Shown here: positions 26,224 through 33,950 of the stretch, piece by piece
How positions within the stretch are numbered: the first letter of the stretch is position 1
Layout: the number at the start of each line of letters is the position of its first letter
Translations under genes and position numbers: made by a program
From: Paenibacillaceae bacterium GAS479
Lineage (GTDB): Bacteria > Bacillota > Bacilli > Paenibacillales > Paenibacillaceae
Reading direction: 5' to 3'
Length of the DNA stretch: 64,000 bases
Assembly: GCA_900105225.1 (NCBI GenBank)
Contig: LT629764.1
Span: 2,931,501-2,995,500, forward strand
The notes under the pieces: generated by a model
What the model was told of the DNA's origin: nothing
Databases searched by the model: none
What the model saw: the letters and a program-made list of their open reading frames with translations, nothing else

Positions 26224-27764
<1,541 letters not shown>

Positions 27765-27788
27765 TCCTCGGCGGATGGAGGTATCGGT

Positions 27789-28184
27789 ATGAGCACCTTA
27801 CTGCTTGAAATTGTAACCCCTGAGCGTACGGTCTACGCCAAGGATGTCAATATGGTCATCCTGCGCGGCGTTGAAGGCGAGATGGGCATTTTGCCTAATC
27901 ACGTGCCGTTGGTAACCCCGCTCAAAATCGCTGCTGTAGTAGCAAAAATTGGTGGCAAGGAAGAGCGTATCGCCGTTAGCGGCGGTTTCGCTGAAGTCCG
28001 CCACGAGAAGGTCGTTATTCTTGCCGAAAGCGCTGAGCTGCCGGGAGAGATCGATGTTGATCGTGCGCAGCTTGCCAAGAAGCGTGCCGAAGACCGCCTG
28101 CGCGGCCGTAAAGACGATGCGGACTTCCGCCGCGCCGAGATGGCCCTGCAGCGTGCTATGAACCGGATCAACCTTCACGGTTAA
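27789..28184 (+). CDS. atpC: ATP synthase subunit epsilon
   Basis: 131 aa, ATG after GGATGGAGGTATCGGT. N-terminal beta-sandwich with GVEGEMGILPNHVPLVTPL; C-terminal helical hairpin (about 90-131) ends RAMNRINLHG. The helices regulate hydrolysis in this family. It is the last gene of the operon and is followed by a terminator. Confidence 0.95.
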   Translation: MSTLLLEIVTPERTVYAKDVNMVILRGVEGEMGILPNHVPLVTPLKIAAVVAKIGGKEERIAVSGGFAEVRHEKVVILAESAELPGEIDVDRAQLAKKRAEDRLRGRKDDADFRRAEMALQRAMNRINLHG

Positions 28185-28198
28185 TCCAAGCATGCTTA

Positions 28199-28238
28199 AC
28201 AGCTCTGTTGTCCATTGGGGACAGCAGGGCTGTTTTTT
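28199..28238 (+). terminator. Terminator of the ATP synthase operon
   Basis: Fifteen-bp stem with two G-U pairs (ACAGCTCTGTTGTCC with GGACAGCAGGGCTGT), short loop, then TTTTTT. It begins 15 nt after the atpC stop. Confidence 0.85.
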
Positions 28239-28333
28239 GTTTTTCTGCGAAAGCTCCTATTGTATAGCTCATCCGGTGATAGGCAGATTGAGAAGCCAAA
28301 GCGATTTCGTTAGGGCAGTTTCTTTTACCGAGC

Positions 28334-28445
28334 TGTGGATTAAAAGCGCTTGGGAAAAAGTTGTTCACAAAATAGATGTCTGTGGATAAGTTGTGAGCAA
28401 CAAAGGTGAATTCTGTGCACAACCCTGTTGATAAGCTGTGGGTAA
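28334..28445. other. DnaA-box cluster
   Basis: Seven 9-mers related to the DnaA box TGTGGATAA lie within 112 bp. They are TGTGGATTA 28334-28342; TTGTTCACA (opposite strand) 28361-28369; TGTGGATAA, perfect, 28381-28389; TGTGAGCAA 28392-28400; TGTGCACAA 28414-28422; TGTTGATAA 28426-28434; TGTGGGTAA 28437-28445. Six point the same way. Such clusters away from the origin are known in B. subtilis as DnaA-titrating or regulatory sites. The region is non-coding, lies after the atp terminator, and is followed by the PHP phosphatase gene. Whether DnaA binds it is inference. Confidence 0.7.
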
Positions 28446-28544
28446 TGTATGTGGGAACAAATGAAGCTCCAGGAGGATGACGCTCGTCTACAAAATCGCT
28501 TAGAATGGAAGGATCAGGATAGAAAAAGCGGGGAGTGAAAGCCG

Positions 28545-29348
28545 ATGATTGATATTCACACGCATATCTTGCCTGGCATAGACGATGGTGCAAGCCACCA
28601 GGAGCATCTGCTGGAGCTGGCAACCGCGGCTGTCCAAGAGGGAATTACGGATATTATTGCAACGCCTCACCATGCAAACGGTGTTTACTGGAACCCGGCG
28701 AACGAGGTGAGGGCCTTGCTGGAGCAGTCGCAGAAGCTGCTGGATAAGCAGGGCTTGTCGCTCCGTCTTCATGCGGGGCAAGAGATTCGGGTGCATGGGG
28801 AGCTGCTCGAAAATTTGGAGCGAGGCGAGCTGCTTAGACTGGCGGATACACCGTATATGCTGCTTGAGATGCCGACGAGGGAAATTCCGCAGGAGATGGC
28901 TGAGCTCATCTATGAGCTGACGCTACTCGGTGTTCGACCGGTCATCGCCCATCCGGAACGGAATATGGAAGCTCTACGGGAGCCGCATCGCCTGGAAGAG
29001 CTGATCGATCTTGGCGCATGGACCCAGGTGACAACACATTCGTTGCTCGGCCTTTATGGCAAAAATATCGAAAAAGGCGCCTGGTCAATGGTGAAAAACG
29101 GGCTTATTCACCTCGTCTCCTCCGATGCGCATCACGCCCAGCGCAGAGGCTTCAAGCTGAGCGAGGCATACACGCTTATTGAAGCGCGCATGGGACAAGC
29201 AGTGAGGCATTATTTTGAAGCCAATGCTGTTCGACTGCTGGCAGGTGAGGAGTTGGAGCCAGCAGCAGCTGGACTGTTGGCACATCTGCAGACACAAGAT
29301 GCCGGACCGCGCGGGCTGCTGCGCAGCCTGTTTGGCCGGCGGGGGTGA
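28545..29348 (+). CDS. PHP-type tyrosine-protein phosphatase (CpsB/YwqE family)
   Basis: 267 aa, ATG after GGGGAGTGAAAGCCG. The N terminus MIDIHTHILPGIDDGA, IATPHH, AGQEIRVHGE, IAHPERN and SSDAHH supply the metal-binding histidines and aspartates of the trinuclear PHP centre. CpsB/YwqE enzymes dephosphorylate tyrosine kinases that control exopolysaccharide synthesis. No matching kinase/modulator pair is in the window; the gene stands alone. The C-terminal 30 residues are a variable basic tail. A 28-codon frame (29361-29447) follows without a good binding site and is probably not a gene. Confidence 0.85.
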   Translation: MIDIHTHILPGIDDGASHQEHLLELATAAVQEGITDIIATPHHANGVYWNPANEVRALLEQSQKLLDKQGLSLRLHAGQEIRVHGELLENLERGELLRLADTPYMLLEMPTREIPQEMAELIYELTLLGVRPVIAHPERNMEALREPHRLEELIDLGAWTQVTTHSLLGLYGKNIEKGAWSMVKNGLIHLVSSDAHHAQRRGFKLSEAYTLIEARMGQAVRHYFEANAVRLLAGEELEPAAAGLLAHLQTQDAGPRGLLRSLFGRRG

Positions 29349-29500
29349 GAGCTAGTGGTGATGCTATCAGGAGAGAAGCTGGAATATGCGACTGAGCTGA
29401 ATGTTCAACTCATTCGAAGGCTCAAGATAATGGGTCGCGCGGGCTAATCCGCAGCTTTTTCTGTTAAAGGGCCTTTTCTTCAGATAAACACAGTAAGAGC

Positions 29501-29552
29501 AAATTGAACAAAGCGCAGGGAGCCGCTCCCTGCGCTTTGTTCAATTTGTTTG
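29501..29552. terminator. Long perfect inverted repeat, probable bidirectional terminator
   Basis: Twenty-two bp perfect arms (29501-29522 and 29526-29547) around CCG, followed by GTTTGG. It lies between the phosphatase gene and the convergent YheC/D-type gene (stop at 29723). The remaining bases 29553-29722 show nothing recognisable. Confidence 0.7.
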
Positions 29553-29722
29553 GAATTTTGTTAGGTGGAGCTGTAGAGAAGAGTTGTTAGTTGTGAAAAT
29601 CTGTTAGGTTGTCTCGCTTTTTAGCCGGATCGCATAAGTCGTGCGCTCTCTGCTCACATTGAGTATCGTCTTTACAGAGTTGACTGAAATGCTAGCGAGT
29701 CCGGCACTTGCCAGTTTCAGCT

Positions 29723-31305: not shown

Positions 31306-31637
31306 AATGGTTCGTTTTGCATTCTTTTTAACTTCTTGCAAGCCTATGCAGCCGCTTAACAACTCTTAGTTCGTAAGGATGGATTTTGCCAAATAAAGAG
31401 GGATTAAGGGGGAGGAAAGCGAAAAAGTAGGCAAGAAGAACGAACTGGCAAAGCTGCGATGCCGGAAAAAGGTACATCGCGAAAGTCGAAAAAGGACTCT
31501 TTCTGCCCGTTGTAGGCAGGTTGCGAAATGAATGTGTTTGATGGCTTAAGGCAGCTTTTTTGGGAGCATCCCTGCCGAGTAGGGATAGAAGCGCCGAACC
31601 ATCATAGGATAGATACGGAGCAAAGGAATTGAGGCTC

Positions 31638-33950
31638 ATGAAAGAAGGATATGTTAATACGCCGAGACTTGTCCGCATACTGGCGGCAGCGCTCGCGACA
31701 GCCAGCATGCTGGCCGCTGCGCCCGCTTTGCCAGCGGGCAGCTTTGCTGCGCCGGCCGCCGAAAGCGCCGGCGCGCAGGCGCCAGCCGAGAAGCAGCATA
31801 GCTGGCTTCTCGGTTGGCGCGATCCCGGGCAGCGCATTGCTTTGCCCGGGACGATCGTGCTCCACCACCGCGCAGAGCCGGCGGTGGAGCTTGTCGCGCC
31901 CGAGCCGGGCGCGGACCCAGCCGCGTGGCTAGCGCGGCTGAGGGCGACGCCTGGCGTCGCCTACGTGCACCCGAACGAATCGGTTCGGGTGCTAGACGCG
32001 CGGCCCGCGCCAGCGCCGCTCGCGTGCCCTCGTGCCCTCGGCTCTGCTTCGCCGCCGCAGGCCGCGCCGCTCGCGTGCCCTCGTGCCCTCGGCTCTGCTT
32101 CGCCGCCGCAGGCCGCGCCGCTCGCGTGCCCTCGTGCCCTCGGCTCTGCTTCGCCGCCGCAGGCCGCGCCGCTCGCGTGCCCTCGTGCCCTCGGCTCTGC
32201 TTCGCCGCCGCAGGCCGCGCCGCTGACGGGCCCTCGCGCCCTCGGCTCTGCTTCGCCGCCGCAGGCCGCGCCGCTGACGGGCCCTCGCGCCCTCGGCTTT
32301 GCGCCGCTCGCCGCAACGCTAGCGGCTGCACCCTCGGCCGCTCCGAGCGATCCCGGCCTGTCTAAGCAGGCCTATTTGAAGCAGATCGGAGCTCGCGAAG
32401 CCTGGTCCAAAGTCCGGCCGCAGTCTTCCGTCACCATCGCGGTGGTCGATACCGGCATTGATCTGAATCATCCTGATCTGAAACCGAATCTTTTGCAGGG
32501 TGTAAATCTGCAAAATCCCGGCTCTCCGGCGCAGGATGACAATGGGCATGGCACCAGTGTGGCTGGAGTCATCGCAGCAAGCGGCAACAATGCAGCCGGC
32601 ATTACTGGCGTTTTGTGGAAAGCCCGGCTGTTGCCGGTCAAAGCGCTGGACGAGGATGGGTACGGAGATGAAAAGCAGTTGGGAGAGGGGATTCTTAAAG
32701 CGATTGAGAAGGGCGCACGCATTGTCGTTCTGTCGGTCGGACTTTACCATTCCTCCCCCTATATGCGGGAAATCGTAGATCTGGCTGAGAAAAAGGGCGT
32801 GCTGCTCGTCGCCGCGACAGGCAACGATGCCGAGCGCTTTGGCAGCAAAACAACGATCAAATACCCGGCGGCTTATCCGACCGTGCTATCAGTCGGTGGT
32901 ATTGGCCCTGATGGTATTCCGGAGCCCCGCTCAAGCCGCGGCTCTGAGATCGATCTGGCTGGCGCATGGCGCGTGTACACAACAGAGATGGGGGGCAGTT
33001 ACCACTACGAGGAAGGCACGTCTATGGCGGCTCCTCAAGCAGCTGCCGCTGCAGCTTTGCTTTGGGCGAAATACCCGGACCTTAAACCTTACCAGATCCG
33101 TTCGCTGCTACGTCAGACGACTAAAGACACCGCGCCCGGCGGTTTCGACGTGGTTACAGGTTACGGTTTGCTGCGCATGGAGCGAGCCTTGACGGAGAAA
33201 TATAAACCAGATCCGCATGAGCCGAATAGCTCCTCTGCACAGGCTGCTGCAATGCCGCTAGGTAAGCAGCTATCAGCCGAGCTGAATGGGACCTCCGACA
33301 GCGACTGGTACAGGCTCGACAGTCCATATGATGGAGTTGTGACGCTCCAATTGCGACAGCTTCTTTCGAACGGCCAGTCTCCAAAGACGATTGAACTGCT
33401 TCTGGAGCAGCCGGGAGGCAACATAAAAAAAGAACTCAAACTCAGCAACCATAACGTTGAATGGAACGTCAAGAAAGGGGTTAACCGTCTCCGACTGAGG
33501 CTTAAAGGATCGGCAGCCAAATCAAAGCTGCCCTACTTGCTCAGCACCAGTTTGCGCATGAAAGCGGACTCCAGCGAACCCAATGACAGATCAACTGAGG
33601 CTGCATCGCTCCCTGATCGCACTCAAAGCTTGCGTGGTACTTTACACAAATTGGGTGACAAAGATTGGTACTCGATCCGGGTCGAAGCTGAAGGTTTGCT
33701 GCGCATCCAACTGGATGCTGGTACAATGCGCATGGATCCAGCTTTCGCCTATCGCAAAGCTGGAGGAACTGAGGCTGAAGTGGACTATGAAGGCGAGGGA
33801 ACCGCAGAGACATCGCCGCAGATTCGCGTTTCTCCGGGCATTTATTACATACGTGTATGGGACGCATCGGAGCCGCTGGCCAGTTACGCCGCAGGTTTTT
33901 ACACACTGGGAATTACGCGCGAGAAGCTGCCAAAGGCTAAGGGAGACTAA
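31638..33950 (+). CDS. Secreted subtilisin-like serine protease with repeat linker and PPC domains
   Basis: 770 aa, ATG at 31638 behind AAAGGAATTGAGG. Residues 1-38 form a signal peptide. A propeptide-like region (about 50-125, with PGVAYVHPNE) precedes 5.5 copies of a 17-aa repeat (127-225). The S8 catalytic domain has Asp271 (VVDTGID), His304 (NGHGTSVAG) and Ser462 (GTSMAAP). Two C-terminal domains with EPN..D.DWY motifs (about 530-640 and 640-760) resemble pre-peptidase C-terminal domains. Each 17-aa repeat of the first four carries one cysteine. Base composition of the linker is far more GC-rich than its surroundings. It is likely an extracellular protease. Confidence 0.9.
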   Translation: MKEGYVNTPRLVRILAAALATASMLAAAPALPAGSFAAPAAESAGAQAPAEKQHSWLLGWRDPGQRIALPGTIVLHHRAEPAVELVAPEPGADPAAWLARLRATPGVAYVHPNESVRVLDARPAPAPLACPRALGSASPPQAAPLACPRALGSASPPQAAPLACPRALGSASPPQAAPLACPRALGSASPPQAAPLTGPRALGSASPPQAAPLTGPRALGFAPLAATLAAAPSAAPSDPGLSKQAYLKQIGAREAWSKVRPQSSVTIAVVDTGIDLNHPDLKPNLLQGVNLQNPGSPAQDDNGHGTSVAGVIAASGNNAAGITGVLWKARLLPVKALDEDGYGDEKQLGEGILKAIEKGARIVVLSVGLYHSSPYMREIVDLAEKKGVLLVAATGNDAERFGSKTTIKYPAAYPTVLSVGGIGPDGIPEPRSSRGSEIDLAGAWRVYTTEMGGSYHYEEGTSMAAPQAAAAAALLWAKYPDLKPYQIRSLLRQTTKDTAPGGFDVVTGYGLLRMERALTEKYKPDPHEPNSSSAQAAAMPLGKQLSAELNGTSDSDWYRLDSPYDGVVTLQLRQLLSNGQSPKTIELLLEQPGGNIKKELKLSNHNVEWNVKKGVNRLRLRLKGSAAKSKLPYLLSTSLRMKADSSEPNDRSTEAASLPDRTQSLRGTLHKLGDKDWYSIRVEAEGLLRIQLDAGTMRMDPAFAYRKAGGTEAEVDYEGEGTAETSPQIRVSPGIYYIRVWDASEPLASYAAGFYTLGITREKLPKAKGD
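32016..32305 (+). repeat. 51-bp tandem repeat inside the subtilase gene
   Basis: Five full 51-bp units (32016-32270) and one partial unit. They encode PLACPRALGSASPPQAA four times, then PLTGPRALGSASPPQAA, then a diverged PLTGPRALGF end. Units are nearly identical at the DNA level, so expansion is recent or kept even by recombination. Confidence 0.95.

Follow-up and report, generated by a model that had tools for sequence, protein, structure and literature searches.

Clusters of DnaA boxes, the binding sites of the protein that initiates DNA replication, were reportedly studied outside oriC in Bacillus subtilis by Okumura et al. in 2012; in Escherichia coli, the datA and DARS loci work together with IHF or Fis. 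The joint deletion of six such clusters in B. subtilis is described as leading to early initiation, which a single re-inserted cluster partly relieves (PMC5295017, PMC13220808), and a passage that sets B. subtilis apart from E. coli makes the weight of titration in B. subtilis itself a matter of dispute (PMC5295017). The eight strongest DnaA regions of this bacterium hold 4–12 boxes according to Table 1 of PMC4447404, where it is also stated that only eight of the 269 regions bound in vitro had previously been seen bound in vivo, and that DnaA affects transcription at several of the clusters. The E. coli datA and DARS loci are likewise portrayed as non-coding clusters outside oriC that tune DnaA (PMC4585315, PMC13220808), whereas B. 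subtilis is described as being without them (PMC13220808). In addition, an enrichment of boxes on the origin side of the E. coli chromosome is put forward as a titration system (PMC12371093).

The array described here lies downstream of atpC in Paenibacillaceae bacterium GAS479, in a window (the whole stretch of DNA analysed, 64 kb) that corresponds to bases 2931501–2995500 of the single-contig genome of 5,519,719 bases (a 5.52-Mb chromosome). It resembles the B. subtilis clusters in containing several boxes, a strong one among them, in its non-coding and origin-side position, and in being one of several such stretches in the genome. The gene neighbourhood, with the order ywlC, glyA, upp, atp, is presumably that of the B. 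subtilis ywlC cluster, but the array follows atpC rather than lying upstream of ywlC, and the spacer upstream of the ywlC homologue (13735; TIGR00057 above the cut-off) contains no box with at most one deviation. Among the places of the B. subtilis clusters, ywlC is the one that was compared, and a cluster of this kind is not defined by where it lies; the properties that do define the kind, namely a density beyond chance outside oriC, location on the origin side and upkeep in relatives, were all found. The assignment to the non-origin clusters of the B. subtilis kind, made by an earlier, sequence-only reading of the window, is well supported on the grounds of box density, box conservation and the presence of sister clusters. 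The seven boxes, known from their sequence, compare with nine at B. subtilis ywlC by the matrix that PMC4447404 itself uses. From datA and DARS the array would differ in that these loci are reported to act on the nucleotide state of DnaA (PMC4585315). It shares near-origin sites and an expected early duplication with the origin-side enrichment of E. coli, which is, however, depicted as a regional density over many kilobases and not as a compact array (PMC12371093).

The gene for the ATP synthase epsilon subunit, atpC (27789–28184, plus strand; NCBIfam NF001846 above the cut-off), is followed by a hairpin and T-run resembling an intrinsic terminator (28198–28244, plus strand; two overlapping sites against 0.2 expected in shuffles). 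On the far side of the array, an open reading frame at 28545–29348 on the plus strand matches the Cps4B model NF041488 well below its cut-off and is called phosphatase-like here; we take it to resemble YwqE. As far as can be told, the stretch between the end of atpC at 28184 and the start of this gene at 28545 is non-coding, as had been claimed: a minus-strand open reading frame of 151 codons (28168–28623) spans the cluster, but its length is not retained in Paenibacillus herberti. Rfam yielded no match at gathering scores within 27700–29700. Counting deviations from the consensus TTATNCACA or TTATCCACA over 28300–28480, we found six putative boxes with at most one deviation (one perfect, five single) and one with two deviations at 28334–28445. 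The earlier count of seven boxes, one of them perfect and six in one direction, stands, except that it had listed four single-deviation boxes instead of five. The outermost box, TAATCCACA (28334–28342, minus strand, single deviation), is followed by TTGTTCACA (28361–28369, plus strand, single deviation) and by the perfect box TTATCCACA (28381–28389, minus strand), which opens a register that is conserved in relatives. Eleven bp past the perfect box lies the weak box TTGCTCACA (28392–28400, minus strand, two deviations); the register continues on the minus strand with TTGTGCACA (28414–28422), 33 bp past its first member, TTATCAACA (28426–28434), 12 bp further, and TTACCCACA (28437–28445, single deviation), another 11 bp on. 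Elsewhere in the window, a large open reading frame (31629–33950), which we take to be subtilisin-like by sequence, carries, before the part presumed to be catalytic, a PLACPRALGSASPPQAA-like peptide repeated several times in tandem.

Such a density would rarely arise by chance, as the sequence-only reading had maintained. Dinucleotide-preserving shuffles of the spacer (28245–28544) contained 0.32 boxes on average and three at most, and none of 5000 reached six; in each of the seven other genomes with a cluster after atpC, none of 1000 shuffles matched the observed number. Apart from stretches overlapping the cluster, no 150-bp stretch in the 64-kb window contained three boxes. Genome-wide, TTATCCACA occurs 62 times against 15 for the reversed control, a fourfold excess. 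A survey of 1.256 Mb of the same genome (23%), comprising 60 stretches and the window, covered all 62 perfect boxes (59 in 47 of the stretches and three in the window, the other 13 stretches being without one), so that clusters lacking a perfect box in the remaining 77% of the genome would escape it. Within the surveyed 1.256 Mb, the atpC cluster ranks third by boxes per 150 bp, with six, below those at 3128784 (eight) and 2370525 (seven); three stretches, at 3520840, 2548327 and 1187623, hold five each, as do two parts of oriC, and three stretches, one of them part of oriC, hold four. The three five-box stretches and one at 3728023 are further clusters of four to five boxes in this genome. 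A strict search for paired boxes returned two places in the genome (three overlapping matches), the atpC cluster not being one of them. Helical phasing was rejected as a general property of the arrays and amounts to a hint, the test having been picked after the spacings were seen: the strict boxes of the window fit a period of 10–11.6 bp (p 0.018; 0.73 with weak boxes), those of genome G033 did so with p 0.04 (0.002 with weak boxes), and the other six genomes gave p 0.036–0.23 (0.035–0.22), the five genomes of the genus not being independent of one another.

The distribution of the cluster among relatives is patchy. We scanned about 700 bp 3′ of atpC in 139 genomes, 128 from the family and 11 further ones (only 236 bases in one, G025, at a contig end), and found five to six boxes per 150 bp in eight. 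Five of these belong to the eight genomes of the genus, namely the present one, P. herberti (the closest named relative, with 97% identity in AtpC), P. pasadenensis strains MER37 and DSM 19293, and G001; the cluster is missing from the other three, P. humicus, G002 and G004. Among the 131 genomes outside the genus, P. phyllosphaerae, G100 and G033 have a cluster. Box counts are bimodal, with three boxes in one genome (G026) and zero to two in the other 130, and a reversed-motif control on the same spacers gave three boxes once and otherwise no more than two. Absent from three of eight genomes of the genus and from 128 of 131 others, the cluster cannot be generally essential. The arrays outside the genus differ in layout from those within it: P. 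phyllosphaerae and G100 have in common a minus-strand spacing of 9-11-12 when weak boxes are counted, and the minus-strand boxes of G033 are 20–22 bp apart. The idea that genomes without the atpC cluster compensate with one nearby, for example at ywlC, was rejected for this neighbourhood: across 20 genomes, the 20-kb stretch ahead of atpC contained one four-box cluster, in G126, and none in P. humicus, G002 or G004, and 13 named loci of 13.9–20.4 kb contained clusters solely at the known place after atpC. The G126 cluster, about 10.6 kb upstream of atpC, is the only one with at least four boxes there among the 20 genomes.

Where the cluster is present in the genus, its layout is retained more faithfully than its letters. 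The four minus-strand boxes at 28381, 28414, 28426 and 28437 hold a register of 33(32)-12-11 bp in all five genomes, while the letters of the boxes vary. The perfect box shifts place, opening the register in the window but standing third in G001, where the first box reads TTATACACA, the second is weakened to CTATCCCCA and the third is TTATCCACA; in MER37, the third is weakened to TTATTAACA. Two of the 20 register boxes, one in MER37 and one in G001, have two deviations. The register comprises only four of the seven boxes, those at 28334, 28361 and 28392 not being kept throughout: the box at 28334 is without a counterpart in the four other genomes of the genus that have the cluster (P. herberti has TAATCAACA), and the one at 28361 is retained in P. 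herberti and MER37 and replaced, in DSM 19293 and G001, by a minus-strand box 19 bp ahead of the first register box. Relative to the window, DSM 19293 has kept 27 of 36 box bases and 22 of 58 spacer and flank bases, G001 27 of 36 and 22 of 59, and MER37 35 of 36 and 31 of 59. Summed box scores in these three comparisons, by a matrix set by hand, are 44.7–47.2, where neutral change would give means of −13 to −32; in all three, every one of 20,000 simulated substitution runs at the spacer rate fell short of the observed score (P. herberti, too close to the window, was left out). The register was picked by eye from boxes present in both genomes, a choice that biases towards this outcome, but the gap is nonetheless wide. 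Judged by these comparisons, the putative boxes are evolutionarily maintained in close relatives. The conservation on which the earlier claim had been staked does not speak against it, the register being present in five of the eight genomes of the genus and the cluster missing from three.

The sole DnaA match in the genome is at 2506866–2508176 on the minus strand. It is flanked on both sides by box clusters, coincides with a change of sign of the GC skew and has a DnaA-trio-like TAGTAGTAG on its dnaA-dnaN side; we take this locus as oriC. The atpC cluster, at 2959834, is 452 kb from dnaA, or approximately 16% of half the chromosome, so that the earlier description of the site as origin-proximal is fair, but the proximity is moderate. 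Where both genes are on one contig, the distance is similar in relatives (450 kb in P. herberti, 445 kb in MER37 and 404 kb in G033). Closer to dnaA, at ~137 kb and outside the window, a cluster at 2370525–2370651 (L127:9969–10095) precedes tadA (NCBIfam NF008113, above the cut-off). Among 59 tadA loci of Paenibacillales (all 57 relatives matched among the 59 searched, plus P. phyllosphaerae and G100), 56 carry, ahead of the gene, a pair of plus-strand boxes at a distance of exactly 12 bp, and 46 have at least five boxes per 150 bp; the reversed-motif control gave four boxes in two of the 59 stretches and three in two more. The three loci without the pair come from single genomes in three further families of Paenibacillales, one of which also includes a genome that has it. 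The pair was found in none of the 25 tadA loci scanned from other orders of Bacilli, where 55 genomes matched tadA, each locus having at most two boxes. The distance from dnaA to tadA is 94–144 kb in nine relatives where both are on one contig. Among the matches listed from the open-licence literature, none dealt with DnaA-box clusters in Paenibacillus or at tadA. A Borrelia paper on DnaA at dnaX (PMC9879097) was considered and rejected as a match for the tadA cluster, no dnaX having been noticed by eye after tadA. A third cluster, at 3128784–3128989 (L133:9885–10090), lies downstream of map, between map and an eda-type aldolase gene; with nine boxes in 206 bp, it is the densest found outside oriC, and it has at least four boxes in all eight genomes of the genus and is absent in P. 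phyllosphaerae, G100 and G033. Of these three clusters, that at atpC shows the least conservation. The one at tadA makes the more interesting lead and merits a study of its own. After tadA, a small minus-strand open reading frame (L127:10856–11068) presumably resembles Spo0E-type sporulation phosphatases.

Four other readings of the array were weighed. The one with the most in its favour, which we nevertheless regard as unlikely, is that DnaA acts through the array chiefly to control the phosphatase-like gene at 28545, as at B. subtilis sda or ywlC, raising or lowering transcription when bound upstream of the promoter; this could also be a second role. A promoter-like pair, ATGACG-18-TAGAAT (28477–28506, plus strand), begins about 30 bp past the end of the array, and its GGATGACG is invariant across four aligned species; a like gene lies downstream in the five genomes of the genus and in P. 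phyllosphaerae, and transcriptional effects of DnaA at several B. subtilis clusters offer a parallel (PMC4447404). Such a pair is, however, about as frequent in shuffles (one found, 0.8 expected), at seven loci where a like gene follows atpC, no 150-bp stretch holds four boxes or more (one of these loci, L098, has three), and the gene after the cluster in G033 is Dps-like instead. It is a good deal harder to accept that a different protein, with a motif like that of DnaA, occupies the boxes, or that selection has kept them on other grounds: one box has a palindromic core, TGTGCACA, of a form that might accommodate a dimeric regulator, but the same class of 9-mer is clustered at the genome's own oriC, and the 9-mers of the register are oriented, with no palindromic core in three of the four.

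The sequence-only reading had also linked the array to the atp genes and the ATP level, and adjacency to atpC is all that a coupling of DnaA to the ATP level through this operon has to recommend it. We did not sustain that link, which strikes us as very improbable: a terminator-like hairpin stands between atpC and the cluster, such a cluster is missing at this place from 131 of the 139 genomes with atpC, and the other clusters looked at, including the more conserved ones at tadA and map, lie away from atp genes. Several DnaA boxes, one of them strong, would also suit a second or fossil replication origin, a reading to which we give next to no credence and which was rejected on the features that distinguish oriC: AT content over 30 bp peaks at 70%, against 87% on the dnaA-dnaN side, no DnaA-trio-like run was found at the cluster, and the GC skew, in 8-kb steps, does not change sign across the window.

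By its sequence, then, the array is a real, selected DnaA-box cluster, and most likely a lineage-specific titration station at a new place. We consider it probable that it is a selected putative DnaA-binding array whose main role is that of a reservoir on the origin side, and that it belongs, as a member specific to its lineage, to a redundant titrating set whose more conserved members would be those upstream of tadA and downstream of map. This reservoir reading builds on four direct results, namely the density of the boxes, their upkeep in relatives together with that of the register, the existence of sister clusters and the distance from dnaA; DnaA binding, its cooperativity, titration and an effect on the timing of initiation we infer from them. 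Several DnaA molecules would bind to the strong box and to the weaker ones that follow it in the same orientation at 33, 12 and 11 bp, and the array, duplicated early in each replication round, would leave less free DnaA after initiation. A fixed local switch would explain the patchy presence of the cluster less well than a redundant reservoir that can gain and lose members.

More tentatively, and with somewhat less than even confidence, we suggest that Paenibacillales have a layered set of DnaA-controlling clusters unlike that of B. subtilis, comprising a near-invariant tadA station ~0.1 Mb from the origin, a map station at the level of the genus, and fast-evolving accessory stations such as that at atpC. 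The accessory stations would keep their spacing rather than their letters, as might be expected if DnaA assembles cooperatively from the strong box. The evidence that we met among Firmicutes for non-origin clusters affecting initiation comes from B. subtilis alone, and species with and without a given cluster, beside a near-invariant one, offer a natural comparison. A register that is kept while its letters change points to what DnaA may need from such arrays and, if the layered arrangement is true, species would differ in the tuning of initiation through the accessory stations that they gain or lose.
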